Positions 22,155-46,239 of a stretch of 64,000 bases of DNA are shown here, piece by piece. Made by a program: the position numbers and the translations under genes. The notes under the pieces were generated by a model that was given only the letters and a program-made list of their open reading frames with translations, did no database searches and was not told the origin of the DNA. The stretch comes from Psococerastis gibbosa (lineage: Eukaryota; Arthropoda; Insecta; Psocodea; Psocidae): contig OZ020487.1 of NCBI GenBank assembly GCA_963971405.1, positions 35,995,039-36,059,038 on the forward strand. Reading direction: 5' to 3'. Numbering within the stretch: the stretch's first letter is position 1; every line of letters begins with the position of its first letter.

Positions 22155-25100
22155 ATGTCTGTCGCTATAATGAGAAGGTTGAAAATGTCCAAATTAGCTG
22201 CAGCTACAAGAGAATTGCGAGCCATGTCTACACAGACCCCATTAGTTAGTGCCTGCGTCAATGAAAAGACTGGTGTTGCAATTGTGACGATGCAGAGACC
22301 ACCAGTCTGCGGTATTAACTTGGAATTGGCCTCTGAGTTACTCAAGACCTTCAAAGATCTCGAGGCTAACAAGTGTCGTGGAGCTATTTTAACATCGGTA
22401 AGATTGTAAGACTGTTTTACCCTAGATGGTCCCCTGGATATTTCTAGTATATCAGTGTCTTTGGTGGGTCCTTGAAAAAGGCACCTTTAGAAACAACCAC
22501 AACGGATGTATTTAGGCCTAATTTGCAATTTGCAGAAAACGATTGTCATAGCGGGATATGAACGCAAGATCTTTGTCTACTCGGTCCATCATATACGGAA
22601 CCACATTTACAGAGATTCTATGCATTGCACTATCTGGGCATCTGAGACTCGTACCTGTACTCGCATCTTGGTTAAGTCATGCTTTCGCCTGTTTCATTGC
22701 GTCAATAGAAAGCTTATCTCAGCTTCTCCATTATCGCTTGTAGCCGGTGCAGGTTGACATCGAGAACGTATACCAGTTTGCCAATGGCCAACAATTCTTA
22801 CGGGAACAATACAAATAATGTCTGAAATTCATGGGGTCATTGCCATTGGACAAGGGACCTATGGGCCTCTATAAGTAGGCATTATTCCATATAAAGTCCT
22901 TCGGGACATCATTATAGAATAAAAATAAAATAATCAATGTGTTGTATAACTGCGCTTTAAAACACACATTTCGTCCATTTTTATCAGCTTTTTGCATTTT
23001 ATTTTCAGGCGATGCCATCAATATTTTCGGCGGGCTTGGACATTTTAGAAATGTATAAACCTGATGTGACAAGAATGAAATCGTTTTGGAGCACACTACA
23101 AGACTTGTGGCTGGCTCTCTATGGCTCAAGCTATCCTACAGCTGCGGCTATAAATGTATGTTCAATGAAATGTTGTTTAAAAACTAGTTTTTTAGGTGGG
23201 AATACCATCGACAGTGGCGTAGCCAGAATTTTTTTTTTTTTTGGGGGGTCCAGTTTTCATAAAGTTTGCCCGCTTACGATAGGTTTTCGAATGGGTGGTG
23301 TTTCATTTGGCGCTCCCCCCCCCCCCCCCCGGATTGTTTTTTAAAAGATAGGCCTGAAATTTTGATTTTGCAGGCGGTAACTTTATTAACAAAACTGGAA
23401 AAAGGGGCACCGGGGTCTCCCCGGCGAATTTTTTTTTAGATCAATATCTAAATAATTTGCTATTTTGCTAAATTTTGGGGGGGGGGGGGTCCAAACCCTG
23501 CTGACACCCCTCCCCCTTGGCTACGCCACTGTCCATCTACCTCCTTTTGCAGAATGCAAGTGACATTGACGAGGTAGCAGACATTAAAGACTTAATAATG
23601 ATGTCTGCTACCACGTCAATCCACTTGCATTATGCAAAACTAGGTTGATGGAATTGCCGCCATAGCAATACCAACTAGCAAGCAATGATTTTTATGCTCT
23701 TCCTGAATGTCAATGGTCCTCACTTCCACCCCGCCAGAGAATCATCATGTCCTTTACTAAGTTCTTTTTTTCTGAGCTTCGGATGTTGTCGTATGAAAGT
23801 CCTTATAAGAGACAAATGGACAGAGCCATTCATGGGCCGGAGTGGTGTCGGCATAGGCGGCAACTCCACCGGCGAATTTACTTCGTTTGTGATTTGAGAT
23901 TTTTTGTTGATTTTGTTTTGAGGAGACTATTATGTGGATACTTAACTTATCTCTTATAAACTAAGTTATAATATGGTAGCAGACATCATTAATAAGTCTC
24001 TACCATATTGTAACTTAAGTTATAATAGATAAGTTAAGAATCGACATAATAGTCTCATTAAAACAAAACAAACAAAAAACTTCATATCACAAATGAAGTA
24101 AATTCGCCGGTAGCAATGCCGCCATAGGTGATGCTTCACTGGGGAGCACTATTCATGCTCACAATCATTTCTGACGCCATATTTAGTATTAACTTCTTTT
24201 AGAATTACCTGCTGTGATGGATGTCAATTCTCAAATATAGCGCCCATGATTAACTTATTGTTATCATTACAACTCTCACTCTTATTGTTATTGTCATTGA
24301 TGAGCATTCTTCCCTGTCATTTTAATTTACTGAAGTTGCTGAGCTACAGGTCCAAATGATAGGCTTACAATCCAATAACAGCTATTAATTTTAAATTTTA
24401 CTTCATTACAATTCAAATGATCACTTAGGTCTTAGTTTAGTCGTAAAATGAAGGAAATTAAATAGAAAATGATACGATATGCCACTCTCCATAAGGTAAT
24501 CATGGGCGCTATTATGAGGGATTGAACCTCCAATCAGAGGAGGGGATTTTGCCACACTGTTTTTTATATTTCTATTACAAAGGTTGTCCCATCCTGTGGC
24601 TGGAGACCGTTATCAATATGGCTGCTAGTGTAGCCTGTACAAGATATGTACGCAATTTGGCGGGGAAAGCCAGTGATAAGTGTAGCCTGCACAAGCTAAG
24701 TACAGGTTTTTTTGATCGGGTCCAGGTATCCGTTCTGCTATGCTGCAATGTGTAAGACTTCGATATTTTTGGCGTTGGTACTTATCTCTGATAGTTGGCT
24801 TATGGTTAACGGGTGCCTCGTAAGACATATTATGGCTCCCGCCGCTCCAGTTAATATATTTCTATGGGTTGTCCCGGCTGGAGGCTAATGATATCCTGGT
24901 TAATGAAATACATCTTTTAGATCAACCGTGGTCTTTTAGCCCGGATTCTCATATTCCATCAAGGTATGATTCATTACAAAAGTATACATGAACGTAAGGT
25001 GCCCATTCCATTGACCGGCTCGGGCTATTTCCAAAAACGGTGACGTGGCAGCAGACATTCAAGACTTAGGTGGCGTTTCCACCGACCTCGCATTGCAGAA

Positions 25101-27505
25101 TTGACGGAAATGTTTATTTTCCTCTATGCCATAGTTAAAATTGATCAATGATCATACAGTAAAATCACAAACAAACAAACTAAAATTAAAAAATGGCGTC
25201 ATGGGATATGTTAAGTACAAACATTTTAATAGATTTCTATAAAAAGAAAAATTCTAATTTCCGTCAATGTCATTTGCATTCTGCAATGCTAGGTCAGTGG
25301 AAACGCCACCTAAGTCTTGAATGTCTGCTACCACGTCACTGTTTTTGGAAATAGCCCTAGCCGGTCAATGGAATGGGCGCCTTAAGGAACAATTATTTTA
25401 ATGGTATACACATTTTTAGGGTCACAGTCCAGCTGGCGGATGCTTACTTGCTATAAGCTGTGAATACCGGGTAATGGTTCATCAGGAAGGAAAACCTTAT
25501 ACAATTGGGCTTAATGAAACGCAGCTGGGGATTGTGGCGCCGCAATGGTAAGGTTCTTTCATTTTTACATTTTAGCTTTCTTATTTATCCGTTAGTACAA
25601 TATCAGTAAAGCTTTGTTATTTTTTGATTTCCGCATTTACTTGCTTCGAGGTCCCTGAAACCCAATGAACTGGTTTTTATGAAGTGTCTGTTTGTCTGGC
25701 TGTCCTTCGATTTGTGGACAAACTATGGATTTTGATGAAATTAGGTTAAAAAAAAATCGTATCCCAGGACCATTTTTTATATTTTGGCTAACTATATACG
25801 TATTTATTTAATTATTTCCGGTCGTAAAAATCTTCGCCTGTACATGAATGTTATTGTATTACTTTTGAACTACCTAGTTAACTTAGTCCTTTGTTTCTCA
25901 GGTTTATTGACTCATATCACAATACATTGCCACGTAGAATTGCTGAAAGTGCCTTAACAACCGGTAAGCTTTTCACCGTTGACGAAGCTCTGAAAGTCGG
26001 TCTGATTGACGACATTGCAAAAGATAAGGAAGAAGCGGTGGCCAAAGCGGAGGTATGGATTTCTGGCTTCTCGAGGATTCCACGTAAGTAGCTGCCACTT
26101 TTACACTTTGCACTGCTGCCCATTTATGGCCGTTGGAATATATTGCAGCCAAAATAGGATAATCCTAAAAAATTATATTAGAAAAGAAACTATAACTGTC
26201 TAATACCAGGGAAATTATGTAATTTATGTTAGGTAAAACATAGGTAGCTATGGAGGTCTGGCACATTGTAATAACCTTTAGACGCGCTAATATATGTAGG
26301 AGCACACTGCTATAGTCGTTTTATTTATTTATATAACACAAATTGGGCACACATTTCAAATTCCAAGACTAACAAACCTAGAAATTAGAAAGAAAAAAAA
26401 AGTCAAAAGTTACGTTGTCAGTCGTATTTATGGCGCCAATTTTGGTTTTTAACGTGACCGAAGAACTTATTTATGGAGGGGGGGGTGGATATAAGCGAAA
26501 TTTACACTAAATACAATAGGATTCACTTTGTGCCACCCAGTGAAAATTTCTTAAAATATGCTCTGGTTGTACAAGCACGCTACCTTGCCACCGAAGTGGC
26601 TAAAATTTGAAGCTAAACCGGTCAGAAAGACTCGTAAATCGGGTTTTAGTCAGAAAGTATCCTTTATTCTCCCACTGTTTTACGGACACAGTTGACTCAG
26701 CCAAAAAATCAAACGTCAATTAGATGTTAATTAGATAATAAATATTGACTTTTTGTTCTATTACTAAGCCAACCTAGCGGAGTTAGGGCTATAAAGCCCT
26801 CTCTTACACTCAACTAGAAAGGCCCGGGACCGCCTGCTTTACATGCCCTCCGAGCATGGCCAGAAAATGTAGGAAGTGTAGGACTCGAACCAACAACCTT
26901 TCGGGTGAAAGTCAGAGTCAGATAAAATTAAGCCTTTGATAATGCGACGGGTTATTAATCAGCTAAGGCAGTAACTATGCAAAGGCGTGAGTGTCACTGA
27001 ACTAAGCATTAGATCAAAATGCTGATATTTCTTCCAGAAATTACTAATAATTTGCGGGTTTCCATGTTTTAATAGTAATTGACCCACATCGTGAATACCC
27101 CTAAAACCTTCAGTACTTCGGCACTGTACTGCACCGTTTCGCACCATAGTAGTTCCACCACTGTATCCATATGATATATCTAAAAATGCTCAGAAAAATG
27201 TCTCCTGTTTGTCCTGATAATTTTGTCAATCCTACGATTGATATTTCAAGAGATATTTAGTATTTGCACTGATAAGGGTTTTCCCCTTCCAATTGTCTCT
27301 TCATCACCCGTTCTGAAGTGAATTAAATTATGTTGTTGCAGCCGCAGCTCGCACATTAACAAAACGGGCTCTTCGCGGTGAAGCACTCAACAGACTGAGT
27401 AAACAGAAGGAGGCCGACTTGGAACACTTCGTTGCGTTCGCCACATCAGAAAAGGTCCAGAAATCACTAGCTGTTTATCTAGAGGCTTTGAAGAAGAAAA
27501 ATTGA
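22155..27505 (+). CDS. ECI1: Enoyl-CoA delta-isomerase 1, mitochondrial, paralogue B
   Basis: This is the second tandem ECI1 gene, with five exons: 22155-22397, 23009-23155, 25420-25547, 25902-26083 and 27342-27505 (TGA). The exon lengths are identical to paralogue A and again give 287 residues. It has a basic N-terminal presequence (MSVAIMRRLKMSKLAAATR), FSAGLD at 87-92 and GHSPAGGC at 131-138. The expected catalytic Glu163 lies in NETQLGIVAPQW, which fits the family consensus better than paralogue A. The C-terminus VQKSLAVYLEALKKKN has no peroxisomal signal. Reaction and location are as for paralogue A. Introns 1-2 are loaded with elements: R2, a hAT-like MITE and palindromes. Palindrome P4 ends only 38 bp before the exon 3 start. 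I regard B as the conserved copy and A as the more divergent one; expression data would decide this. Confidence 0.93.
22625..22915 (+). repeat. Dispersed repeat R2, copy 2
   Basis: Shares GGTTAAGTCATGCTTTCGCC, TTGACATCGAGAACGTATA and ATAATGTCTGA with 50545-50806. It lies in ECI1-B intron 1. Function unknown. Confidence 0.6.
23195..23661. mobile_element. Palindromic MITE (P5), split by a hAT-like MITE
   Basis: The left end GGTGGGAATACCATCGA and right end GGTTGATGGAATTGCCGCC are imperfect complements. The core GACGAGGTAGCAGACATTAA pairs with its complement. The left arm is broken by the insertion at 23212-23531. Confidence 0.65.
23212..23531. mobile_element. hAT-like MITE inside P5
   Basis: Ends CAGTGGCGTAGCCAGAATTT and TTGGCTACGCCACTG are the same as the 17335-18036 element, of which this is a shorter relative. 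The flanks ACCATCGA and TCCATCTA match at six of eight positions, consistent with an aged 8-bp duplication. Confidence 0.75.
23856..24123. mobile_element. Palindromic MITE (P6) in ECI1-B intron 2
   Basis: Long inverted arms (GGCGGCAACTCCACCGGCGA and complement) enclose ATATGGTAGCAGACATCATT. This is the closest relative of P1 in UQCRC2 intron 5, sharing AACTTATCTNTTATAA and GAGACTATTATGT. It is flanked by ATA on both sides. Confidence 0.75.
24998..25381. mobile_element. Nested palindromic MITE (P4) in ECI1-B intron 2
   Basis: Same outer and inner arms as P3 in ECI1-A, with the central unique core in the opposite orientation. Left flank TAA and right flank TTA. It ends 38 bp before the first base of ECI1-B exon 3, so it borders the branch-point region. 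Confidence 0.75.
25605..25830 (+). repeat. Repeat R1, diverged fragment
   Basis: A weak R1 match in ECI1-B intron 3: AAAGCTTTG, GAAGTGTCTGTTTGTCTGGC, ACAAACTATGGATTTTGATG and ACCATTTTTTATATTTTGGC in R1 order. Confidence 0.5.
26751..26925 (-). mobile_element. tRNA-derived SINE (family F1) in ECI1-B intron 4
   Basis: On the minus strand it reads CGAAAGGTTGTTGGTTCGAG then TCC, a good Pol III B box. A body ends in GGTTGGCTTAGTAATAGAAC and short A/T runs. The same unit occurs at 49167-49294 and 55761-55963. Here the A-box end is eroded. Confidence 0.7.
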
Positions 27506-28489: not shown

Positions 28490-31379
28490 TAGCCCAGTCA
28501 ATGAACGCTCAAAAAAAGGTATAGAGGGAGTTGGAGGGATAACAATTTTTGACTTCGTAACTTTGTTTAGACTAGTTAGGAGGTGAACATATCAAAAGTC
28601 CTCACTCGGAGCCCTTGAGCCGGTGGGGAGGGGGGGCTGTGAAGGTACCGTTTTTTGGTTTTTCGCTTATATTTCGGAAATTATGCGCCCCAGCGATATT
28701 TCTGTTCTATACCAAATTAATGCTGATTAAATTTGCTACAATTTATATGAAGTAAAGTTTTTTTGTTATCTTGCATAGTTTTCGAGATATCTGCTCGGGA
28801 AAATCAGTAACTTTGGCGTCAAACGTATTGGCCAAAATATACACCATTACCGGTAGGTATGCACACATAATGAGTATTGGACGGACGTCTAAATAGCTCC
28901 CAACATTCATCCGTTGCTATGAACATATTGTTTGTGCATGTGGAAAAAGGGCAAAAAGAAAAGAAGAAGAAAAAAAGAATTATTTTTTATTGGTACCTAT
29001 TGAAAAGTCAAAAAAATACAATAGAGTGCCATTTCAGTTAATTACTTTGCTCTCATGGGGCGGGGAGGGTGTTTTGATTTTGATTTGGGCGCCATTTTCT
29101 CCGATGTCTTCTTCATGGGACCCCTGGTCAGGGACGGAACCAGCCCATTTCCCCATTTGGGGGGGGGGGGGGTCAAACAGGAAAACATATGTACTGTAGT
29201 ATCAATTACATTAGAGAGTAATAAATTAACTTGCAATATATTTACAAAATTTTGGGAAGAGGGGCAGCGACCCCCTGTCACCCCCCCCCCCCCCCCGTAT
29301 GCGTCCAGGCCCCCTTCTCATGTTAAAACGGCCAGTGCATCCTCTTCATCTCAGTCCACGAGAGGAACCCTATTCTGGCAGTTCCCCTGGCACATTTTAC
29401 ATAATGGGGAGTATTTGAGGCTCTAAGGTTTTGGCTATTAAGTACGTTTCAGGCTCTGGCGCAGACGTTTTGCACTAGGAGACATTTTTTAGGACAGCGT
29501 CCGGTGTAGCTCCTATCTCATCACCAGGCATTTCTTGTTTATCTTCCACCAATATGTCTGAAGAGGCAAGTTATATTATTTCCCAGTCACAGCTGAACTT
29601 TTAGAAAAGTCCTGAGGGAATGTTGTTTTGCTGCTCCCTCGGTGGACGGAAGGTATGACATGTCAGGCTTAGTGGTGGCCACCGATTTATGGAATGTCTT
29701 GTATCTGTAAGCATTCAGGGAGACCTCTTTCGCTGGAGCCCGGAGCCATACCACCTAAAGATGCAGGTTTCACCTGCCTTTTATGCCTGGGCGATGGTGG
29801 AGGAAGGGTCTGAAAAGACCGCTGCTGCTTTCTAGACCCCTGGACAAATGCGACTTTGTGTTTCAAGATGCAGATGTTGTGTTGCATCCACTAAAGGCGT
29901 GCAAGAACAAGACGTTCTTGAAACCTTGTTGCTGAAGCTCTTGGAGGTTTGATGAAACAAATGTCCTTAATTGCGCATCAGCTCAAGCCATCAAGAGGAC
30001 TATGCGATCTACATCTAAACACACAATGCCGACAGGTAATGTTTCCGAAATGACTTCCCCACACCGAGGGAGCAGCAAAACAGCATTCCCTCCGAACGTT
30101 TCTGGAAGTTCAGCCGCGGCTGAGAAATAACCTGCCTCATAAGACGTATAGGTGGAAGACAAGAACTGCCTGGACCCAGTCCGAAATTAGCTAACAGCTG
30201 CATCGGAGGATATCCTAAAAATATTTTAAGCAAAACAGACTTTGCCAACGCAAAGTGTGGCTGCAAAAAAGCAAGCCTCAAATACCCCCACTATGTAAAA
30301 ATTGTCAGTGCCTCGCTCAGAAGAGAAGAGGAGGATCCACATGCCATTTTCCTTCAGAACAAGACCGAACAGCAAGGGGCATGGACGGATACGGGGGGGT
30401 GGGGGTGACAGGGGGTCGCTGCCCCCCTTCCCAAAATTTTGTAAATATATTGCAAGTTAATTTATTACTCTCTAATGTGATTGATACTACAGTACATATG
30501 TTTTTCTGTTTGACCCACAACTGCCCCCCCCCCCCCAAATGGGGATATGGGCTGGTTCCGTCCCTGAACAGGGGTCCCATGAAGAAGACATCGGAGAAAA
30601 TGGCGCCCAAATCAAAATCAAAATACCCTCCCCGCCCCATGAGAGCAAAGTAATTAACTGAAATGGCACTCTATTGTATTTTTTTGACTTTTCAATAGGT
30701 GCCAATAAAAAATAATTCTTTTTTTCTCTTCTTTTCTTTTTGCCCTTTTGCCACATGCACAAACAATATGTTCATAGTAACGGATGCATGTTGTTGGGAG
30801 CTATTTAGACGTCCGCCCAATACTCATTATGTGTACATACCGGTAATGGTTTATATTTTGGCCAATACGTTTGACGCCTCGCAACACTAGAATTGGTTTA
30901 ACTTAAGAAAGAATGTCTATCAAACGGTAAAGTAACATAAACTATTGAAGGGAATTTAATGTTCTACAACTCTATGGCCTGCATTTATTTTTTGGTTGCA
31001 TTGTTAAAGAGTTATCCTGTCAAAAAGTTCAAAAAAAAGTTAGGAAAAAGTGGATTTTTTCAAAATTACTGATTTTCCCGAGCAGATATCTCGAAAACTA
31101 TACAAGATATCAAAAAAACTTTACTTCATATAAATTGTAGAAAATTTAATCAGCATTAATTTGGTGTAGAGCAGAAATATCGCTGGGGCGCATAATTTCC
31201 GAAATATAAGCGAAAAACCAAGAAACGGTACTCTCAAAGCCCCCCCCCCCCCCCCCCGCCTCAAGGGCTATGAGTGAGGACTTTTGATATATTCACCTCC
31301 TAACTAGTCTAAACAAAGTTACGAAGTCAAAAATTGTGTTCCCTCCAACTCCCTCTATACCTCTTCATTGACTGGGCTA
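28490..31379 (+). mobile_element. Long-TIR DNA element with decayed nuclease/Cys-rich gene (element 1)
   Basis: The ends are TAGCCCAGTCAATGAA and its complement, flanked by TTA on both sides (28487-28489, 31380-31382). The inverted arms are very long: 28490-29317 on the left, 30372-31379 on the right. The left arm lacks about 180 bp seen in the right arm (about 30880-31060). Interior 29318-30371 has a plus-strand gene remnant. The end sequence resembles the TAGTCCGGTCAATTTAGAC end of the element at 44238-46236, and both contain the same protein family. G/C homopolymer runs interrupt the arms. Confidence 0.8.
29880..30340 (+). pseudogene. Decayed C-terminal part of XPG/PIN-like + Cys-rich protein
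   Basis: In broken frames the plus strand gives LPHTEGAAKQHSLRTFLEVQ (from about 30052), matching in pattern LPPTSVAAHQHLFRVYYQVQ of the 45-kb element. A second piece reads NAKCGCKKASLK and then CKNCQC (about 30246-30315), matching the Cys-rich motif AKCGCKKVGLSC...CTNCQG. Several stops and frameshifts separate these pieces. The parallel order of both blocks, inside an element with related ends, makes the assignment credible despite weak identity. Confidence 0.6.
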
Positions 31380-31439
31380 TTAACAATATACACCTTTCTG
31401 CCGCCCCCCCCCCCCCCCAATACCGGTTACATTCAAGTG

Positions 31440-31785
31440 CAAACAACCCTTAAGAAAGTACGGTACTTACAGTTACCAAGCCTAAGCATCTCAAGAATGA
31501 CCCAATAGGAACTGTATCTATGAAATACCATGTGAATGTGATGGAGAACATGTCGGTCACTAGCAGAAAGAGTACAGGAACACAAACGGTGCGTGAGACT
31601 GGGAGAAACAGAGAAATCCCATTTAGCAGACCCTTTCTGGACTAAAGACCATACAATCAAATGGGACACATCAAGGATCATTATTAGGGAGACAAGTTTC
31701 ACACAGAGAAAGCCAAAAGAAGCAACAGCTATGGCCCTGAATATTGATCCCATAAGCCAGCCCAGCATGACATACACCCGTTAGG
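31440..31785 (+). pseudogene. Penelope-like retroelement remnant (GIY-YIG end)
   Basis: The plus strand reads CIYEIPCECDGEHVGH (about 31510-31558), then after a frameshift LAERVQEHKRCVRLGETEKS and HTIKWDTSRIIIRE, up to a stop at 31782. This order is typical of the C-terminal GIY-YIG endonuclease of Penelope-like elements. The reverse transcriptase is missing. It lies next to the right end of element 1. Confidence 0.7.
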
Positions 31786-31824
31786 GTCGCCATTAGTTAG
31801 GGATAAAGTTCAGGTAGAAGGGGT

Positions 31825-31984
31825 CCATGGGGTCCGGACACCCCCCCCCCCCCCCCCGATATACATTTTTGTATGTAAACCTGTATGGTTTGAAGAATTT
31901 ATCCATTAATTCAGTAATAAATTACGTTTAAAAAAAATTTGGACCCCCCTCCCCTCCCGAAATCAAAACCTGGGCACGGCCTTG
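31825..31984. mobile_element. MITE fragment related to 38626-38806
   Basis: Shares GGGGTCCGGACACCCC, TGTAAACCTGTATGGTTTGA and GAAATCAAAACCTGGGCACG with the intact element at 38626-38806. The left terminus is missing. Confidence 0.6.
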
Positions 31985-32430
31985 CCTTCACCTAAAAATG
32001 GGCTCCGCCCTAATTGTTCGATGTCTGTAAGCGCCCTGCTTCTAATGAATATTAACTCAGGAGGCAATTTAAGTCCAACTAATCCTTTGCTAAATACTGG
32101 CAATGGGAATAAATTAGTGTATAACTTTTGGTTGGTAGTCAATGGTTGGTTGCTGAATAAGAATTGAATGGGCCGTACTACAGAATGGACATGGAGTAAG
32201 AAAGTGAGCTGAGTTGAACTGAGTTAGCAGTTGCAGTCAATTCACTCCATTGTGAGGGCAATTGAGAGCCCGGGGAGTGACATCAAAAGTCTTCCTGTCC
32301 TACAATAGGACCCCATCTTCTATTCAGCTTCCCAATATCCGTACGTGGCGGATCCAGACTAGATACATCTCGCTGCGTTGCATTGCTCCAGTTATTTCAA
32401 TACTCTCAATTTGTATTAACTTAGTACTGT

Positions 32431-32701
32431 TGTAAGTGGGATCACTATTGGGGCTTGGGGCGCAACAGGCTACTCACTGTTCTGGTTGTCTTGCCGCCTG
32501 GTGTCGAGATGAGCTCGCTGTGGACGATGGACAAACACGCAGTGAACCAACAAAAGCAACCCGCGCAGAAGCTTAGTTCGGTACTAAGAAAACGAAGGAA
32601 GTTCAATAATAAAACAAGTTGCTGCGAATGCTCGCTCGTACTCAACGGAACTGCGCGATTAATAGAACTTGTTATAATACAAAACTGAATTATTTTTAAC
32701 A
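32431..32701. mobile_element. Solo LTR
   Basis: A 271-bp unit begins TGTAAGTGGG and ends TTTTTAACA, with exact 5-bp duplications ACTGT (32426-32430, 32702-32706). It contains an AATAAA signal at about 32606. No internal retrotransposon sequence lies on either side, so it is probably the product of LTR-LTR recombination. The clade is not determinable. Confidence 0.7.
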
Positions 32702-32706
32702 ACTGT

Positions 32707-34381
32707 ATATGATGAATAATAATTTAAGTTTAACGCTGCTGGCTTCCCACCTGCTTCTTTATTCACTAAGGTCATGCAATTTCTGACTTAATTTACAATC
32801 TTATGTTTAAAAAAGAAATACTTCTTGCATAAATGATGACTCACGTTACTTTTACGAAACTTAATAAATGCAAGGCCATAGGCTACGAGTTATCCTACTT
32901 TGGTTTGTATTTATCTTGTCTGGTCAAATGCGGCTTCACGTAAGCCCATACTATAGCAACTCGACTTAGGTAGGTACCGTATTTTGAAGTTGTTTTTCAT
33001 TTCTATTTAGAGACTTATCCTAAGTTGCTGATAAAAGAATGATGAATATAAAAACGTGGAAAAAAAACGGTTGTACCTTATTAATCATCTCATTAAGATG
33101 ATTACAAAACTCATTTTGTGGAAAGGTCAGCCCACAGAATACTATAATATCTCAGTCAGCCCACCTTAGTTTGTACTTGTATATGATGAAATGTGATTGC
33201 TTTCAGGCTTTCTCTAAATCTAAACTAATATCAATTAGGCTATCAACGAATCAATCATTTGCAAGATGTACAGTGCACACATAAATATGTGACAGCAGTG
33301 CACTTGTACAATATCATAATAATTGTGTTCTGTTTGTAAAGACACGAGTTTCACAACAGGTTAGCTCTATAGAATTTGGGGGTGAAGCTTCTTTGTCCCC
33401 AGCATTTTCTTTGTTGTGTTTGTTAAATCCAAATACCCAATGGTTGTATTACTTGTATTCCTAATCTACCTCATGGGGTCATGGCCAAAACTACCTGGGC
33501 GTTATTTTCATTACAAAAATATCCGTTCTCCGTGTAATTTTGTGACCCTCTATTTTCAAATCGTTTAGGTCGGTGGAGCTTTACTAACGGGGGCCGTACT
33601 CAGTCGAATGCCTATTGCCTACGGCGTGAAAAAATGCCACTCCACAAGCCTAAATTGGTGTTAAAAGATAAATCAGTAATCTCACTAATCTCCCGGCTCT
33701 TACCCGATGCTGAACCCCTGACGTGTGACGTCCCTGAGGCCTGAAGAGGCGCAACCGCGCAAATTGCAAAAGCAAATGTTGACAAGGCACTGTAATCAGT
33801 GTAATCCCTCCCGCACCTCCATCCCCATCCGTAGACCGTAGTCCGTACCTTTTTCAAATTTTGGTGCCTGGCTTGGTTTCCCGAGTATATCTTATGACTT
33901 ACATGACATAATGACACCTTTTCACATTTTGAAGGGTGGTCTTATTTGAGAATGCCCCCAAACGTTTGGTCTTCCTCAACAATTTTGAGTTCCTGGATGT
34001 TCAAGCTTTCCTTTCCAATTAATTTCCCAAGTATAACTTATGACATAACTTTTGGCGATCAAAATTTTGGAGGGCTAAATCAGTTAATCCGCCAAAACAG
34101 GGTGAAGTTCGCCGGACCGGCGGGGAAGACCGAGTTATTTTTCAACAACTTTCAATGGCTACAAACCCCGCTATATAGCTGCAAAGTATATGTGTTATCA
34201 CATAAAAACAGACTACGCTGGCTCTCCGTCATATATTTGAGGTCAAGATTTTCATAGAAGCGAAAATAAAACCAAGTTAACAACGAAGAAAAAATGAATT
34301 ATGTTCGCTTCTATGATAACAGAATTTTGGCCTCGCATCTAACAGCAAAGTTTTGTCCCAATTCACCCTTTTCACGGTATG
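32707..34381. other. Intergenic, no gene seen
   Basis: No exon or complete element was recognised. Two related lines occur at 33880-33950 and 34015-34080 (CCNAGTATANCTTATGAC), suggesting an internally repeated old element. Confidence 0.4.
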
Positions 34382-34391
34382 AATAATGTAG

Positions 34392-34684
34392 TAGGAGTAG
34401 TGTTCGTCGGGTTAATAACGACTTAGGCCTCATTTGGGCCCATAGAGCGACCCCGACTTGACTGTCCTATGCCAGCCCATAGGACAGTGGACCTCCTGAT
34501 TATAGTGGATTCTGAACCACTTGGGAAACACAGTGAAGTCACACGAATGACACGATTACTTCGGAGGTGACCAGGACACGTCCTACCATGTTTCCCTACC
34601 GGCACTGTGCACACGACCAAGTTATCTGCAGCTTTGAACCTGCTCTGGTCCGCTGGATTCAACATGGTATGGCGGCCGGTCATC
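34392..34684 (-). mobile_element. 5S-rRNA-like SINE, copy 2
   Basis: Minus-strand copy with the 5' end at the right (GGCCGCCATACCATGTTGAA on the minus strand). It has a TAC-type tail at the left and flanking direct repeats AATAATGTAG (34382-34391, 34685-34694). Confidence 0.75.
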
Positions 34685-34694
34685 AATAATGTAG

Positions 34695-36970
34695 GTACTG
34701 TAAATTATGTACACCAATCGGCAAATCCATACCTGCTGCGTGACTGTTGCCTTGAAACTTGAGGGGTGGCAACGTAGAATTGAAAAATATACATTATCTA
34801 CCTTTTTGATGTTGCTGCATTATGGGTGACCCTAGAAACCCCACTCAGAAAAAAACGCTCAGTGCCCGCCTGCAGTTACTCGTTACACTATAATGTCCCT
34901 AAATCCGTACCTGTTTGACTGCCTATATGGACGCAGGAGATAATAATAACACTAAACCTCGTCATTCCTTAATCATTGTCTATCTGTGAGTCCCTGCGGC
35001 CTGCGCTAGGCCGACCCTGCAGTGCAGTAGCCAGTAGGCTGCATGAAAATTGAAAACACATGGCATGACTAGTAATAAACAATCTAGCAGTGCCTAGCAC
35101 GGGAAGCTGGAGCTGCGCTGAAGAACAGCCTATTAATCAAATCGTAAATCTCTAGGCACTAGGCCGACCCTGCAGTACCTGAAAAGTAAAAACACATGGC
35201 TAGGTACTCCAGTCCGTACCTGGCTGGTTGTTCGGTGCCTGGCACGGGAGGCTCCCAATGTCACCGACCCGTGCTCCACACTTGTCTTACGGCACCATTA
35301 CAGTTAGGCACCGCCTATGGTTAACTTACTTGTGCCGGCCGCATCGCAGATATTTTTGTTGGTGCTTGCAGCCAGTGATGGATCCAGGTTAGGTACGCCG
35401 ATGAATGGGGAATATTTTTCAAAGTAAAATAATTTGTGTGGCTGTTCTGTATTTCTGTCTGTACTCTTTAGTCATTAGTATTTCGCCTTCCTTGGCGTCG
35501 GCGTCATATTGCCCCCGTAGTAAACCTGAATGGATACTATTATAGACATTGGCTGTTTATTCTTATTCTAGCTGTGAGTTGTAAGCTGTCGGCTAAGTGG
35601 CTAAGACCCTGTCTGACGTGAGAACACCTAAAAATTATAACTTACTGCACATATACGATGTACAATCCATGTTCCCTTTCTCAGTGGGTTACCGACTAAT
35701 CGTACATATAATCACGCAAATGGGCTTGAAATAAATAAAAGAAAATATCTGAACCTGAACTAAAATATTCTAAATTCTTAGATGACCTAATCTGCTCTAC
35801 AATAACTCAGTCATAGTCTGCTCAAAGAATAATGTTGCCTAGATGCAGTACTGCAGTAGGTACCTATACGTAAATCCATATACAATAATATTTTTTCGTA
35901 GAGCTAAATGCACTTCTAGGCACACGTGGTATGCTCTCCCATATTCGTCACGGCAGGGGCGTCGTTTAGGGTCCCAGGGGGGGAGGAGTCAATTGCACCC
36001 CCCCCCCCCGTGCTATTTGAAAAAAACACGGCATTGAAAAATATTGAAATGACGGCCATAGAGCGAAATATTTTCATTGATTGCTTAATGATTATGTTCA
36101 TCACGTAGGTAATGCATATTAGTAACTACCTAATAAATTAATTTATATATACATTTTCCTTGAACCCAATTGCCTATTAATTGGCCTTAAACCTTTTATA
36201 TGAGTGGAAATAACGTAACTAGGACAGCAAAAATAGTACCTACGGAGTGTATCCGATTCGTTGAGGACATTTTAATAGTCTGACTCTTGGCTATATATAA
36301 AACCTGTATGTGCCAGGTGCCTACATGCAATCTTTGTGAAATTAATGTTGGGCGTTATCTGATGGCATAACTGCGCCTGAGCTCTGTTAGAAGACCTCTC
36401 TTGAATACCTAATTGAAGTTTGGATAGGACCTAAATTCGAGAATGTCATACCTACCGTATTATTTATTAATCTTTTAGAAAATTGACCCCCAAAATATCT
36501 GACAGTTAGTAATGGGAAGGAAAAACTATTGATTTTTGTTTATTATTGAGAAAGAAAGGGAATGCAGGTACCTATAAACTTCAATAAGACTATAGAATTA
36601 GTATAACTTGTAGCATTGCTGATCTCAGCAGCATGCTCGAGTTCGTCTGAGTCATGAACAACTAAAATTGTTGACACGAGGCGCCTGCTAAGACACCTTA
36701 TTGGTCTGTTTTACTTATTAATTGTGTAAACGTAAGCATTCTGAAATAGCTTGACCTAAAATGCCAACCAACTGCGGTCAATATTAGCAAGTCCAAATTT
36801 TGGCTATTTGTCAGTTTCTATGCAATTGTGTAGAATGACAGCCTGATAGAAAGTGAATGTGTAATAATGTGTTGGTTGGCTATTAATTAGGGTTTATAGG
36901 TTAAATAACGCTCCGTATAGGCTGGTATACCTTTGAAACCTGAGGAAATATCAGTTTGAATCTATATAAG
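34695..36970. repeat. Unassigned sequence with a local duplication
   Basis: Blocks at about 35014-35110 and 35155-35250 share CTAGGCCGACCCTGCAGT, AAAACACATGGC and TGCCTNGCACGGGANGCT, indicating a diverged tandem duplication of about 140 bp. A truncated MITE-like end (CAGGGGCGTCGTTTAGGG) occurs near 35955. No gene was seen. Confidence 0.45.
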
Positions 36971-36973
36971 ATT

Positions 36974-37735
36974 GTTATTATTGCTTTCCAATTTATACGT
37001 AGTATAGGCCTAAGGAAAGCTTTGTGATGGTCGAAATTTCAACGGATTTACACGGTTTGAGGTCCTAGGAACCAAAAAAGTGGTTTTTAGGAAATGTCTG
37101 TCTGTCTGTCGCTCTGTCTGTTCATCGATTTCCGGGGAAACTACTCGGTTGATTTTGATGAAATTTAGCATGAAGGTTCACAAAAATCATACCTCGGGAG
37201 TTTTATTTTTTATTTTGGACTAACTCAATTTGGGGGGGGGGGGGTTTATTCTCAAAAAACTCCAAAAAATTATTTCTCAAAAACGGCTCCAACGATTTCT
37301 TTTAAATTCACATAGGCCTATATTGTATTAGTTATTAATCTTAATAAAATGCGGGGGGTCGCTTGCCCCTTGATAGTTTGCTTCTGGGGGTAAAAAAATA
37401 AAAAAATGTAAATTTTAATGAAAAATGACTAAAAAATAATTTTTCTGCGAAACCTTTCTATCGATGATTTCTACCTTCAGGCATGTTTTAGGTGTTAAAT
37501 TGGGTAATGAAACTGGACAGGTTGCTTTCCCAAAAAACTATTTGGTTGTGTGCAAAATTTTTTTTAAAAAAAAGATAGAAAATTCACGGTCAAATGCATT
37601 GCGTGCCCTGCCATTATTACTGTGTGGTAATGTGTTGGTCTGACCTATCTAGAAGTGGACACCCCCCCCCCCCCCCCCCCGTGATATCCCAAATTGAACC
37701 ATAGGAAAATTATTTACCATGAAAATTATTATTTT
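36974..37735 (+). mobile_element. Repeat R1, copy 3
   Basis: Starts TTGCTTTCCAATTTATACG and contains the full R1 interior through GTAATGTGTTGGTCTGACC and a C-run at about 37662. The right terminal repeat is not recognisable. Confidence 0.7.
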
Positions 37736-38625
37736 AGTAAGGTACCGTATGCACATGGGTTGGCGGAAATAAAGTGGCCTACAGTCATAAAAAATATAAA
37801 TCCGACACTGGTCAGACTCCTACCCTCGTCAGAGTGTTCCGAAGAGGGGGGTTGACATAAGGAATGTTATGACGAGGATGGTGACCCTCTCGTCAGTCTC
37901 GTCATTTCCAAGCAGGTGTTCCAGTGTGAGCGGGAGCGATAGAAGGGCTCTAGGGCCAAAATAATCCAAATGCCGTTGATTTAATGTAGTTCTACTGTAT
38001 ACAATAAGGTTGCTGATTCTGTTGTGCTATAGAAATAGAATGAACCTCTTTTGCATGGTACCAATGTTTCGTGTGGCTAATGGGCTGATTTGGATAATCT
38101 AATTCGTTGGGCGCAAGCGCGCATTTCCGTAAAGACGTCCATTCAAACTTGCTCCTATGTTTCATGGACATCTTAGTTTTGTAGCCTAGGGCAGACAGGG
38201 CTGCTTAGCTAGATGTATAGTTTGCCCTTCAGCCAGCCCAAAGACTGTCTCACTAACACGTACCAGTTACCCTACGTTTTGGTTGGTTGTACAATATATA
38301 CGGTACAAAGGCCCCTGACTATAATAGCCTAATATATAGTGGTGGATCCAGAAGTAGCTGGGACTTAAAAAATGCAAGTAAAATTTAATTCTACAAATCC
38401 TATATAGCCTACTGCTATTTCGCACTAGCGAGTGTGGTATATATCTTTTCCTGTTGGAGATCCCTCCTCTGGCTCCAGGCTCTACATTTTTTATAGTTAG
38501 GCCTAATTCATACCAGTATTAGAAATTTCAAGATTGGAACCTGCCCCCCCCCCCCTCGATTCAACCCGTACAGCCTACTGGCTGATAAGGTATAAACTAA
38601 AAAGTGTCTTTTCTATGCTGCGGTA

Positions 38626-38806
38626 CATGGCCGCGTCCGCAGGGGGGTGGTCCAAGGGGTCCGGACCCCCCCCCCCCCCGAAATATTTTTTTTAATGTAA
38701 ACCTGTATTGTTTGAACACTGGTTAGAATGAACGTTCATTAATAAATTACGTTAAAAAAAAAAAATGGACCCCCCTCCCCGAAATCAAAACCTGGGCACT
38801 GCCTTG
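38626..38806. mobile_element. hAT-like MITE with exact 8-bp duplication
   Basis: The ends CATGGCCGCGTCCGCAGG and CCTGGGCACTGCCTTG are imperfect complements. Exact flanks CTGCGGTA lie at 38618-38625 and 38807-38814. No coding sequence. Confidence 0.8.
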
Positions 38807-39518
38807 CTGCGGTAGGCCTATAAGTCTTTTTTATTCAAAGTTCATAGACCTGCAATACCAGTGCCTAAAATTTGGTTTAGCCTAGGCATAGCTATCCACC
38901 AACACACGCCTTTCATCCTTAAATAGTCAGGATTAACGCAGTCCTGAAAAAAAAAATCCGTATTCGTAATAACCTGCTTGGAAACATATCCGATATTCCC
39001 TCAATTTTATTTCTATCCAGAGTTTATACAATAACAATAGCCTACCGCACTTATATATAGGCTACAGATTATAGTGCATTAATGCTGGTACGGTACAGTA
39101 TATAGGGTGAGCCAAAACTGGTCGTGTATTTTATGATTATAACGTAAAACTGTACTAAAAAAAATATATTTTACCAAGTTAATAACGATACTAACGTCTA
39201 ACTTATTAGTCTATTATGTAGAAGGCACGTATAAACCATCTCAGGTGGCAGTGAGCGGAGCGTACCTGGGAACCTAGCCGCAGCGCTCCACTCGGCGCGG
39301 CACCAAAGACTAAAGAGAGAGAGAAACAAAAATAATTCAGTTGGTGCGAGTCATTTGCTGAGTGAGGTATTGCTTCGCGATGCTTCCCAATTTGCCGCGC
39401 TCGCTTTAGACCTGTTTACATCTGAACTTGTGCTGAAATTATTATTTATCCGTTATTTTATTTATATAACACGTGTTAATATTAATTTAATTCCACATCT
39501 GTTGCAAACTATGTTTTA

Positions 39519-39642
39519 ATGATGAGTGATTTACAAAAAACAGTGTGTTTTCAACATTCTGCCGGTTTAGTGATTACAGTTCTGTGTTGCGCTTGGATAT
39601 TTGGCGGATTAGGACAGCATTTTGTGTATTCTAAAAGTACAG
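39519..39642 (+). CDS. Putative first coding exon of an unidentified membrane protein
   Basis: An ATG-ATG start is followed by 39 more codons and ends at a donor, G|GTAGGT (39643). The peptide has a short hydrophilic head (MMSDLQKTVC), then a hydrophobic stretch LVITVLCCAWIFGGLG of 16 residues, suiting a signal-anchor or first membrane helix. Upstream, 39240-39420 is locally GC-richer with a purine repeat, like a 5' UTR or promoter. A two-codon upstream ORF begins at 39511. I do not recognise the protein and found no second exon, so the gene would need a first intron extending past 40 kb or out of the window. It could be a chance ORF. Confidence 0.4.
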
Positions 39643-40608
39643 GTAGGTTTAAAAACATGGAAGACTGTTTGACTGTTTCTTAATTTAAATCTTTTTATTA
39701 TTATAGTAGGGCTCTTGTCTATTTTGGTTAAAATTATTCTATGCCTAGAAGTGTACCAACAAGCAACATGGCTAGATTATGTACTTATTCAGGTGTAAGC
39801 ATTTTAATTATTGGTTTGAAGATAGCGAATTGTAAGAGGTCTCCAGCCTCTAGCATATAATTTTTCAAGCTACCGAGACAAATAGATAAATTATCCTATT
39901 TAAAAGGCCCACTCGTTTTATGTATTTTCCAATGGATTTCTGTCGTATAGCTTCAAAATGCCGGCTATGCATGTGGCATGTGCCAATGTGCCATAGAGAA
40001 GTGTTTTATTTGGTTGGCCACATGGTCTGATAACTCTGATAGGTTGTGCGCAAAGTTTTTATTCTACAGAAAAGGTCCATTGATATTTGAAGAGCGTGCC
40101 TGCGTACCTCCCAAAGTCTCAGCATGTGCCAGGTGCCTGTGCCTGAGTGTGCCAGGGCCCCAATCCCCATTCCCCATTGTAATTGTAATTTGGCTTGCCT
40201 ATAATTGGAGTCTCAATTCACAGCCGGCCTATTCCATTATCATCATCACCGAATTAAGCAATTAAGCAAATAAAAACCTGTGTTTCACCTAGTGGTGATG
40301 ATGTTAATATTCATTTGGCCCGTCTGCTGGCAGGAATGGTCCAATGGTCCACCACTTAAATGGGGTTACCTAACCTCAAAACCCAGTTTCCGGTAATTCG
40401 GCAGGGAAAATACTCAGCAGCCGGAGATGTTCCTGACAATAATATCTCGGTACGATTCCGATTCTGCCGGTGCCGCGACGAGATAAAACGAAAAGTAAAA
40501 ATAAAGTTTTTCGATATCTCGCTTAGTTTTCGAGATATCGACAGGCCTACTTAAAAATCGAAGAATGAAAAAAAAATTGCATTGGCAGTTATGGGCCCTT
40601 TTGCCTAT

Positions 40609-40890
40609 TGCGGCTATTCCACTTGTCAATATTCCGTCATTTGCAAGGCCGTTGCCAAGGCCCCCCCCCCTGAAATGAAATGCCTTGATACTAGATAGAA
40701 TCGGATTTTGAGAGGAAAAATAAAAACCACTACCGGTATGTAATATCGAATGAAATTTCTAACCCCCCCCCCCTCCTGGCTCCTGGCTACGGCCTTGGTC
40801 ATTTGTGCATCAATAATTGATGAGATGACACAGGGAAAAGAAGAAATTTCATCAATTATTGAAGAAAAATTGACAAGTGGAATAGCCGCC
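40609..40890. mobile_element. Palindromic MITE (P7), split by a hAT-like MITE
   Basis: The ends GCGGCTATTCCACTTGTCAA and the complement ATTGACAAGTGGAATAGCCG are clear. The palindromic AATAATTGATGA core lies in the right half. It is interrupted at 40644-40797. Confidence 0.65.
40644..40797. mobile_element. hAT-like MITE inside P7
   Basis: The ends CAAGGCCGTTGCCAAGG and CCTGGCTACGGCCTTG are imperfect complements. Exact 8-bp duplications GTCATTTG lie at 40636-40643 and 40798-40805. C-runs lie near both ends. Confidence 0.85.
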
Positions 40891-41045
40891 TATGACAAAT
40901 TTTTATGGAAGGAGCATGTCCGAGGCATGTAAATAAAACAATCCTTGCTTAAAATATAAATTATCTTGCCAATGGGGCGTTTGCCTTCCACCTTATATGC
41001 ACTTTCATCCGACTTTTGGAACCGTGGTGCCGGAGGAATCGGAAT
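40888..41045 (+). repeat. Dispersed repeat R3, copy 2
   Basis: Matches 19598-19770 from GACAAATTTTTATGGAAGGA through CATCCGACTTTTGGAACCG. It is joined to the end of P7. A T-run of about 27 follows at 41187-41211. Confidence 0.5.
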
Positions 41046-41249
41046 GTCCCCAATATCCCGAGTAGTGTAGTCAGTAGTGGCAAAGTCTTTCAATGCAAGT
41101 CCACCCTTAAACCTGTACAGTAGGCCTACCCAGCATAGGTAATATGTGTTTTCCCAGGACCTCGGTTATGGGTTGTTTAAGCTATTTTTTTTTTTTTTTT
41201 TTTTTTTTTTGCGTAACTGTAAAATACAGACAGCCTGTGTAACTGGCTG

Positions 41250-43050
41250 TAACTATTAAAAAAAAATGGATTACCTTACTAATGGAAAATATGCTAAGTC
41301 AAAGAGCCTTTGAACTCCAAGCTAAAAGCCCTACGCTGGATAGGTAGGCGGCAGACCTACCTTTGTTGTTAATTTTAAATGACATACTAATCTACAGGAC
41401 TTCCGGGGTCACTCCCGCCATGTGTCGGCAAACATACGGTAAGTTCAATCCGAAGGATAGTGCAGTCTCCGCCAGGATGCATTAGAGTAGGATAAAACAT
41501 GGTGTCCGTCGAATTCCTCTTTCCCAAATGGTGGGAGTAAGAGCAAATCTGTGGCCCATGGTTAGGTGGAGAGCCACATGGAAAGTCACAAGAAAAATCA
41601 CAGTAGTCCAGGTAAACGTAATCTCTTTGGTATCCATTTTGGGGAGATTAAAAAACCACGCCCGGTCTACACCACTGGATATTAAATTAAAGATCCGCTT
41701 CAGTGAGTTTACTATCGGATTAAAAAAAAATGTGAAATCGTGTGGCTAACTAAAGACGTATGTAGACTGTGCAATGTTGCATTCTGGGATATTTCAGTTG
41801 GGAATTACACTGGTATGGTATAGTACTAAGTGCTAGTGAAAGTGCGGGAATCCAAAATACACGGCTTATGGTGGAAAACCACAATAGTTCGCCTTACAAC
41901 CACTCATTAAAGCCACCTTTCATGTACCTGCACGAACCTATATAGCTATACTTTTGCCTGGTATTATTTCCTCGTTGGCTTTAGTGTTAATTACTGTATT
42001 TTTATTATAGATTACTTGCCAACCCATTATAATAGAATACAACCACACTACATGGCTAGAAGTAAGAAAAAATTAAAATGCCTCTAAAAAAACAAAATTA
42101 TCTAAGAATTTATTGGTAAAACTACAGGTCAAGGCGTGTGCGCTGAAATTCCTCCTTTAAGGCTATTTGTTTCTTTGATTTTAACAGATAAAAAATTCAA
42201 TAATTGAATGAAGTTAAATCTTGTTATTGACTAAAGGATTGTTTGAAATTGGTCGCCGGACGGCAGGAAATGTTCAATCAATCCTAAAAGCTTCCATTGA
42301 ATTTAGAGTAGGCTAATGCATAGTTGAAAGCTTACTCAAATGCTTAAACTCTGAAGCTCTGCAGCCCTCGACTCTCGAGGGGTTCTTTGTTGATCCCCAA
42401 TAGTTTTCTAGGTATGCAGCGCCAGTACCCAGTTCCCAGCTTCCTTTTTGTACTGAAAAAAAATCCCCACCCCCCTGACATAATATAATAGGTCACTTTT
42501 GTTCATTTCTTTTTTCTAAATGTCTAACAACAGTTCTATAGTTAAATCTGACGAATGCGTGCGTGGTTGAATCCAAAGCAGTTATGAATAATACATACAA
42601 AATAAACAAATAAACAATGAAAAAATACATGACGGCTTCCTTCGTGTAGTCTTCTCCCAAAGAGATTCAGCATGGAATTTTCGGTCATGTTTCCGTCACG
42701 TGGTCGGAACAATAACGCTGTGTTTACGCCCTCGTCGGTGAGCAATAATTATAACAGACTTCCGAAGGTAAGAGGAGCGTGACATTGGCCAAATAGTGAC
42801 CCCCTAAAAGGGCCAAGTGAGCGGTTCGGCAGCCCGTGGGCGGGGGATCCTTACATACTAAATTGACCACAACTAGCTCGATGGAGATAGGCCTATTGTG
42901 TTACACCCACGTGACCTCTGATGTGAGAATAAAATTAATACGGAGACAGTTATCCTCGGGAGTTTATAAGAATACTATATGGGCAACCATTAAGAGGACA
43001 TGCTACGTAGAAAATGAGCACCCCAAAATTTTTTGTTTTTATTGACTTTT
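41250..43050. other. No gene recognised
   Basis: Low-complexity and AT-rich sequence with short open frames only. None shows a recognisable domain or convincing splice-bounded exon. Confidence 0.4.
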
Positions 43051-43055
43051 TATTT

Positions 43056-43910
43056 TTGCTTTCTAATTTATACGTAGTATAAGGAAAGCTTTGTGATGGT
43101 CCAAATTTTCGATTCCGAGATTTCAACGGATTTACACGTTTTGAGGTCCCAGGAACCCAAAAAAGTGGTTTTTACGAAATGTCTGTCTGTCTGTTCGTCG
43201 CTTTCCGGGCACACTATACTCAGTCGATTTTGATGCAATTGTATGTATGTACGTAGGTTCACAAAAATCATACCTCGGGACAATTTTTTTTATTTTGGGC
43301 TAACTCAATTTGGGGGGGTTTTATTATCAAAAACTAAAAAAAAACGTCTAAAAATATTATTTCCCAAAAACGGCTCCAACGATTTCTTTTAAATTCACAT
43401 ATATTGTAGTTGTTGTTAATGTTGATAAAATGCGGGGGGTCGCTTGCCCCTTGATAGTTTGCTTCTGGGGGTAAAAAAATAAAAATAACTAAATTTTAAT
43501 GAAAAATGACTAAAAAATAATTTTTCTGTGAAACCTTTCCATCGATCATTTCTACCTTCAGGCATGTTTTAGGTGTTAAATTGAGTAACGAAACCGGACA
43601 GATTGCTTTCCCAAAAAACTATTTGATTTTTTGCAAAAAAAAATGTTTTTGAAAAAATGAACAAATGAAAATTCACGGTCAAATGCATTGCGTGCCCTGC
43701 CATTATTGCTGTGTGGTAATTTGTTGGTCTGACCTATCTAGAATTTACCTCACCTCCAGTGACGCCAGGTGGACAACCCCCCCCCCCCCCCCCCGAGATG
43801 CCCGAAATTTAACTATAGGAAAATTATTTACCATGAAATTACTCATTTTCTCTTGCTACTACTTGATAAATTGGAAAGCATGTTCGAGTAAACTCAGACC
43901 GGTTCTTTCA
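43056..43910 (+). mobile_element. Repeat R1, copy 4 (complete ends)
   Basis: Starts TTGCTTTCTAATTTATACG. It reaches the right end GATAAATTGGAAAGCATGTT at about 43864 and the following CGAGTAAACTC. It carries a C-run at about 43777. Confidence 0.75.
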
Positions 43911-44237
43911 ATTAATTAACAAAGCAAGTCATTAAAGATTTGGCTCAGTTGTTGAAGACTACTTCGTGCATCATATAATAGGAAATATTAAATTTTTGGT
44001 ACCTTAGCTCTTCCGTAAATACCAGAACAGACATAACAGGACTGAAATTTCGCGTATACTGGGATTTTTGGAAGAACTACAAAACTGAAAAGTAAAAATA
44101 CCCGATAATATGATGCCTGAAGTAGCCTTCTACAACTTACATGAGCCAAATTTTTAATAACTTGCTGAGTTAATTAATTAAAAAATGAAAATTATTTAAT
44201 TTTGGGGTGCCAATTGTCTACGTGACATATCCTCTTA

Positions 44238-46236
44238 TAGTCCGGTCAATTTAGACCAAAAAATGAGAGTGAAGTTACATAAAGTCCCAACAAGCTGAAT
44301 TTTTGTGAAGTTGTTCAAAACATAATTATAAACAATGTCTGGAAGTTCCCCATCATTCCCCTGTAAGGAAAAAATTTAATTCAAGGTCAAAGGTCAAAAA
44401 AATGAGTTTTTCGCGATTTTCAGCAAAACGGTAAGTTTTATCATAAAAGTACCTCAGACAAAAATTGTAGATCATAAAATTATCTATAAAAAATGTATCA
44501 ATACTTTTTTTATTACGAGCCACCGTTTCTGAGATATAACGATTCTAAAAGTTATAAAAGTTGTTATCGTCATAATATGCATGAGTACGCCACGTATATA
44601 CATCTAGAGTTGTAAAATTTTATATATATATATATTTAATGTTTAAATATTTTATTTGATGAACTTATGACAGTCCCAACCAGTCAACAGAAATTTCTTA
44701 CTAATACCCACAACAAGTCTCGGTTCATTTCAATGTTGAAAGAAAAGTTTACGGCTGAAAATATATTGGTAAAACAAGCTAATAATGATGCTGATGTATT
44801 GATTATTGAAACAGCAATAGAGCAATTCAATTTGACAAATACAACTATTGTTGTTGGTGAAGATGTTGACTTACTTGTATTACTCACTGCTCGAACGCCA
44901 ACTGAAAAAACTATTTTTTTCTTAAAACCAGGAAAAGCTCAGCATCAATCATATATATATTCATCAAAAAGTTTATTTACTCTTGTAAAGTGTAAAGATC
45001 ATGTACTATTTTTACACGCAATAACTGACTGTGATACGACATCTGCATTTTACAGGAGGGGTAAAACAGCAGTTTTCAAAATGTTTGAAAAACAAGATTT
45101 AATTCAATGTGCTGAAGTTTTTAAAAAAAGTGATTCAACTCAACAAGAAGTTATTACCAACGGCATCCGCTTTGTTCTTTCTATGTACGGAGCTCCTAAA
45201 AAACTACCTGTTTAGATAAACATCGATATGCATGTTTCGTTAAAAATACTAAAGATAAAAAACAAGTTCAATTAGCTTGTCTTCCTCCAACTTCAGTTGC
45301 TGCTCACCAACATCTTTTTCGAGTATATTACCAAGTTCAAGTGTGGCTTGGTTATCAGCTAGACCCTACAGACTGGGGTTGGAAGTTGGTCAACAATACA
45401 TTAGAGCCAGTTCAAACTTTACTTCCACCTGCGCCGAAAAAACTGCTAAACATTATTTTTTGCAACTGCAAAAAGGGATGCAGTGCTAAATGTGGTTGCA
45501 AAAAAGTCGGACTGTCTTGTTCTTTGGCATGCACAAATTGTCAAGGCCGGTCGTGCTCTAATATTGAATCACAAACAATGGAGGATTCGTTTGACTCCGA
45601 CGAAATATCATACGATACATCGCTATTGACGCAATTTACTTGCATCCAAAATGAAGATGAAGAAGAAGCAGGAGAAGAAGAACAAGAAGAAGATCAAGAA
45701 GAAGTTCAAGAAGAAGAACAAGAATTTGAAACTTACGAATAAGATGAATAAACTTCAACACTTTTTTCATTTACATCGCTTTTATCTTTCCCAATCTTTG
45801 AAAATTTCCGTTATTTTGCAATAGTTTTACATTAAACAGGATCACAACTGACCCGTGGAGTAGGCCTACTGGGGAAACCACGTTAACAAAAACGTGCTAA
45901 GTACACTACCTCATAGGTGGCGTGGAAACGTGTGCATATTATGACGATAACAACTTTTATAACTTTTAGAATCGTTATATCTCAGAAACGGTGGCTCGAA
46001 GGAAAAAAAGTATGAATACATTTTTTATAGATAATTTTAGGATCTACAATTTTTGTCTAAGGTACTTTTATGATAAAACTTACCGTTTTGCTGAAAATCG
46101 CGAAAAACAAATTTTTTTGACCTTTGACCTTGAATTAAATTTTTTCCTTACAGGGGAATTATGTTTTGAACAACTTCACAGAAATTCAGCTTGTTGGGAC
46201 TTTATGTAACTTCGAATGTCTAAATTGACCGGACTA
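44238..46236 (+). mobile_element. Long-TIR DNA element with XPG/PIN-like + Cys-rich gene (element 2)
   Basis: The ends are TAGTCCGGTCAATTTAGAC and exact complement, flanked by TTA on both sides (44235-44237, 46237-46239). Inverted arms of about 320-360 bp run from each end to a shared CATAATATGCA near 44580 and 45937. The interior holds one gene in two frames. The whole element is 1999 bp, small for an autonomous transposon, so it is probably a deletion derivative that kept the 3' part of a larger gene. Confidence 0.85.
44640..45742 (+). pseudogene. XPG/PIN-like nuclease-domain protein with Cys-rich tail, frameshifted
   Basis: Frame 1 (44640-45215) carries three acidic motifs in the order expected of an XPG/PIN-type nuclease: NNDADVLIIE, VVGEDVDLLVLL and HAITDCDTTSAF (homologues usually have GCD). 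A stop at 45213-45215 is bypassed by a one-base frame change. Frame 2 (45212-45742) continues with LPPTSVAAHQHLFRVYYQVQ and then a Cys-rich cluster with pattern C-x-C-x3-GC-x3-C-x-C, ending CTNCQGRSCSN. An acidic tail rich in EE/QE follows, to the TAA at 45740. The N-terminus probably begins in the middle of the ancestral protein. A nuclease role is inferred from motifs only; a link to Academ-type transposons, which I recall as encoding XPG-like nucleases, is possible but unproven. Confidence 0.75.
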
Positions 46237-46239
46237 TTA

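Follow-up and report, generated by a model that had tools for sequence, protein, structure and literature searches.

Academ transposons of the AcademX lineage carry a nuclease of the XPG type. Academ elements are counted among 17 DDE/D superfamilies, are abundant in bivalves, where their mean length is 5565 bp (PMC10294476), and were reported from every species of an arthropod survey (PMC6327564). Their target-site duplication (TSD) appears to be tied to the enzyme carried, being 9-10 bp with a helicase (AcademH) and 3 or 4 bp with a nuclease (AcademX) (PMC10045372). Here we describe two elements, E1 and E2, in a 64-kb stretch of the genome of Psococerastis gibbosa (contig OZ020487.1, positions 35,995,039 to 36,059,038, 64,000 nucleotides), hereafter the window. 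We consider it very probable that both arose by deletion from cut-and-paste transposons of the Academ type (AcademX-like) and are non-autonomous, and that their full-length relatives, families B and C of the same genome, encode one large DDE plus XPG protein. The demonstrated part of this explanation consists of common terminal sequences, clean insertion of one copy, a 3-bp TSD, conserved D, D and E residues, predicted folds and spread without the DDE-type core. Academ elements are reported from arthropods and bivalves, and the kind is therefore known; the E1/E2 elements would be a new member of it.

E1, E2 and their gene remnants

The original prediction, made from the letters of the window, had placed E1 and E2 exactly, with long inverted repeats and matching ends. 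The features are as follows.

28490-31379, no strand: E1, probable non-autonomous element, ends TAGCCCAGTCAATGAA
28487-28489, no strand: E1 target duplication, left TTA
31380-31382, no strand: E1 target duplication, right TTA
29551-30225, minus strand: putative C-terminal transposase remnant of E1 (XPG/FEN domain onward), decayed, with many stops, located by tblastn of relatives
44238-46236, plus strand: E2, probable non-autonomous internal-deletion derivative, ends TAGTCCGGTCAATTTAGAC
44235-44237, no strand: E2 target duplication, left TTA
46237-46239, no strand: E2 target duplication, right TTA
44238-44597, plus strand: E2 left inverted repeat
45913-46236, minus strand: E2 right inverted repeat
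44646-45215, plus strand: putative E2 gene remnant, first open part, by homology to a Cotesia parent-type protein
45218-45742, plus strand: putative E2 gene remnant, second open part in a shifted frame, Cys-rich tail at about 45455-45562

E1 is 2890 bp long with inverted repeats of about 820 bp, the right arm being longer (998 bp) because of insertions, and its two ends share the first 16 bases. E2 is 1999 bp long with inverted repeats of 360 and 324 bp, and its ends share the first 19 bases. The exact 13-mer TAGYCCRGTCAAT, predicted as the common terminal form, is found at all four ends and nowhere else in the window. With two mismatches allowed it is found six times against 4.64 expected, which is the chance level, and therefore only the exact 13-mer is informative.

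The two elements had been taken for one transposon family. This is ruled out by blastn (E 1e-3, low-complexity filter on), which gave no similarity past the ends between E1 and E2, or between either of them and families B and C; E1 and E2 also differ at two of their first 11 bases. Each of E1 and E2 differs from each of B and C at one of these 11 bases, with equal TSD length. According to the Repbase rule, two non-autonomous elements belong to the same superfamily if their TSD lengths are equal and at most one of the first 11 bases mismatches (PMC4455052); it should be noted that this rule is worded for two non-autonomous elements, that B and C are full-length, and that E1 against E2 directly gives two mismatches. 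We regard E1 and E2, as judged from their sequences, as two separate families whose ends are related and whose TSDs are equally long.

The same gene is present in both elements, as predicted, but in unequal states. In E2 the frame is nearly intact, broken near 45215, whereas E1 holds a decayed minus-strand fragment (29551-30225, best E 1e-25), part of which is repeated in opposite orientation at 29949-30164 on the plus strand. Homology of E2 to the Cotesia parent-type protein begins at the equivalent of family C residue ~1135, past the first two aspartates of the XPG domain. E2 hence lacks the N-terminus, the entire DDE-type core and the stretch bearing the first two nuclease aspartates, and blast comparison of E1 with relatives gave no trace of a DDE-type core. 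A Pfam scan of E2 gave nothing convincing, with one family at E 0.15.

A search of the 409-Mb genome, for which the E2 gene's second half served as query (150 matches scored of 207 candidates), gave 21 gene-bearing E2 loci, with 82-100% identity over the matched part among the top matches; at least 24 matches to the left arm were found among 40 of 208 candidates scored. The breakpoint is common to 16 of the 21 loci, at residue 500 of P0183, a relative from Cotesia, and the others start 14-15 residues earlier (two), at residue 773 (two) and at residue 561 (one). The shared breakpoint indicates that one deletion derivative was amplified. As E2 multiplied without a DDE-type core, the gene left in it is probably not the mobility enzyme. 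The 53 of 269 candidates scored in the genome included no intact parent of E2, but fragments of related parents with 79% (C14:7497504) and 84% identity (C20:12376861) are present. For E1, 40 of 327 candidates were scored, giving at least 38 arm-length matches besides its own two arms, 90-95% identical to the E1 left arm, and one 37-base piece; given these identities the E1 family looks older. A short piece at 56367-56478 is 79% identical to part of E1.

Full-length families and target duplications

Family B has seven copies, 44% identical to the query of the same search, and its stop-to-stop frame of 1585 codons is intact in four. Family C has 19 copies at 51% identity, 17 of them with a frame of 1487 codons. 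We fetched 17 full-length copies (7/7 of B and 10/19 of C), with lengths of 5.8-6.0 kb. All begin with TAGTCCAGTCA, and the right end is the exact complement in 16, with one substitution in L035. The fetched family C copies are all 5970 bp long, and their identity to the reference copy is 99.88-99.98% (family B, 99.55-99.86%). Near-identical in many copies, family C was amplified and active recently. A further family (L048-L050, at least ten copies) carries part of this gene, 113-159 codons at 51% identity, within repeats at least 5-8 kb long.

In brief, the full-length protein is predicted to consist of N-terminal Cys-rich modules, a winged-helix-like domain, a DDE-type core, an XPG/FEN/Exo1-type nuclease domain and a CXC Cys-rich tail; the XPG-type domain is fused to the DDE-type core in both families. 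The predicted core has an RNase-H fold with a helical insertion, similar to P element, hAT and RAG1, and its D, D and E (D438/D604/E845) are invariant in A2. Its best VIA matches are P, Hermes and RAG1; a DDE-type core fold is thus supported by prediction and VIA, while Foldseek alone gave no clear answer. In the XPG domain of family C, D1068 and D1266 are invariant in full-length relatives and D1108, D1182, D1184, D1207 and D1209 are conserved at 90% or more. A Pfam scan of B and C gave no convincing family and did not detect DUF6589 (PF20231), which matched the core region below threshold in three of six relatives scanned (E 3.5e-6 to 3.4e-5). The gene in E1 and E2, predicted to be cargo or a mobility enzyme other than DDE, is on homology neither of these; it is best read as the C-terminal remnant of a transposase of about 1500 residues.

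The 3-bp TSD is exact in all 17 fetched full-length copies. The ten family C targets are all different (AAC, TGT, AGT, TAA, ACC, TAT, TCC, TTG, CAA and CTT), and those of family B are TAA, TTA, TAG or CTA only. Family B was thus inserted solely at TAR/YTA (L031-L037, 7/7) and family C without such a limit (n=10); the two related transposases may be unlike in target choice. Both ends of E2 are visible in 18 of 21 loci, with exact duplications in 16 (TTA four times, TAA once) and two failures (CTA/CAA and ATA/ATG). For the E1 family nine paired copies were fetched, two of which (L061 and L065) have no recognisable end; duplications are exact in four of the seven remaining pairs (AAA, GTG, ATT and ATA) and do not match in three (ATA/CTA, TTA/ATC and GCG/GAT). 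The predicted TTA flanks are true for both window copies but are no rule of the families, and TTA-specific insertion is ruled out by the varied trinucleotides in family C, E2 loci and E1-family copies.

The joined flanks of 36 insertions were searched against the window and the retrieved loci. Spanning matches were found only for the family B copy L032 and, as a candidate, for L004 to L037 over 61 bases. The alignment of empty sites, proposed together with the original prediction, gave clean paralogous sites for L032: its joined flanks align with a dispersed repeat in seven copies that carry no insertion, the join reading TAG in five, AAG in one and TAA in one, with no extra bases. The matched parts in the window are 26728-26833 and 55735-55847, within repeat copies spanning 26728-26898 and 55735-55913. 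Clean insertion is thus shown for this one copy. E2 lies at the edge of an older element.

42990-44237, no strand: older inverted-repeat element with TTAA flanks, ends GAGGACATG, its right TTAA being the insertion site of E2

Removing E2 and one TTA restores the TTAA, which fits a 3-bp duplication. A partial second copy of the interior of this older element is found at 37032-37735.

Alternative roles of the gene remnant

The truncated E2 protein (partial XPG domain plus CXC) might be made and act in trans, for instance as a repressor or a competitor for end binding. The whole 363-residue frame is open, with an ATG near the breakpoint, in 3 of the 21 loci, and the relatives P0095 and P0191 elsewhere are predicted to begin at the same methionine; young age alone could, however, explain open frames. 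Among E2 copies we counted 65 missense and four stop changes against 21 silent ones, a ratio of about 0.8-0.9 over 17 of 20 copies, re-summed after leaving out L020 and L021 (other deletion, misaligned) and L007 (cut short); the raw ratio across all 20 is 0.66. With missense and silent changes in near-neutral proportion, there is no support for a functional E2 protein. One observation weighs against so simple a picture and in favour of a protein acting in trans: the coding part, silent sites included, has diverged by about 0.49% against about 1.36% for the rest of the element (17 copies, L001-L018). Noise from simple-repeat alignment could inflate the latter figure, and with similar missense and silent rates the low coding divergence is unlike protein constraint. 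We regard a role in trans as improbable.

Less credible still, at a very low probability, is that the XPG/PIN plus CXC protein by itself mobilises a new kind of transposon that has no DDE enzyme. It is the sole recognised coding sequence remaining in E1 and E2, and the acidic residues of the nuclease are kept in full-length relatives. However, both full-length families of the genome have the gene joined to a DDE-type core, E2 spread without the first two nuclease aspartates, its frame is whole in just the three loci above, and its amino-acid changes are about as common as silent ones. Weakest of all is the reading of the gene as unrelated cargo of elements mobilised by another superfamily such as PIF/Harbinger, which makes TWA duplications: both window copies lie in TTA and family B is limited to the four targets given above, but nine of ten family C targets are not TWA, the Pfam scan of the two full-length families showed no Harbinger domain, and the same ends accompany the gene in four families (E1, E2, B and C). 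Taken as a whole, the original prediction held for DNA transposons with related ends and equal TSD length, and failed or fell short for the single family, the TTA specificity and the role of the gene.

Relatives, neighbourhood and comparison with known systems

The E2 majority protein (44667-45742) is 95.5% identical over 354 residues to P0183, a protein predicted in the parasitoid wasp Cotesia glomerata. A protein of Colias eurytheme is 92% identical across 73% of the E2 gene's second half, and relatives in Andrena, Bactrocera, Polistes and Araneus are 65-76% identical. Horizontal transfer is possible. Viral relatives were not confirmed in two IMG/VR scans. Elsewhere in the window, likely host exons encode a peptidase M16 domain (4180-4533, Pfam E 2.8e-12) and an enoyl-CoA hydratase domain (23012-23344, Pfam E 6.7e-7).

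Named insect and spider records of the gene are labelled hypothetical, uncharacterized or Tesmin/TSO1-like only; what had been called an "XPG/PIN + Cys-rich" gene can now be read as the putative tail of a transposase whose domain plan is defined. We met no description of the DDE, XPG and CXC architecture in a literature search that lay outside the key Academ papers, and do not claim its absence from print.

We suggest that the full-length protein would bind the TAGYCCRGTCA ends, its CXC tail and N-terminal modules contacting DNA, and that the DDE core would cut the ends and join them to target strands at positions three bases apart, while cleavage or trimming of the other strand or a flap would fall to the XPG-type domain. 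Such a protein would mobilise E1 and E2 in trans, and the coding sequence left in them would be dispensable.

The guess that these are Academ elements fits every feature that could be checked; the assignment is made by described features, not by alignment to reference Academ proteins. The XPG-type domain of AcademX is present in the full-length family C protein, a predicted DDE-type core in the full-length relatives, and the length of 5.8-6.0 kb compares with the mean of 5565 bp in bivalves. Against the 3 or 4 bp of AcademX, exact 3-bp duplications are found in 17/17 full-length, 16/18 E2 and 4/7 E1-family pairs. AcademH is unlike the present elements, with its longer TSD and its helicase, as no helicase family was found in the Pfam scan. 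P elements, including that of Drosophila, have a TSD of 8 bp and are not known to contain an XPG domain. Exo1, FEN1 and XPG nucleases match the C-terminal domain in profile and fold, but here the domain shares one chain with a transposase-type core and a CXC tail, and identity is 9-18% in the structural alignments listed.

In Academ, TSD length seems to follow the enzyme present (PMC10045372), in line with a role of the nuclease in transposition. We tentatively speculate, while holding it rather doubtful, that two nucleases work in one chain, the DDE core cutting and joining one strand of each end and the XPG/FEN-type domain being dedicated to cutting the other strand or a flap. This would be testable in family C, recently active with many near-identical copies; with 17 full-length frames open in a single genome, this XPG-bearing family offers a way to probe what the nuclease domain does. 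Such a division of labour would be as in Tn7, where it lies between two proteins, TnsB and TnsA, but within a single eukaryotic protein.
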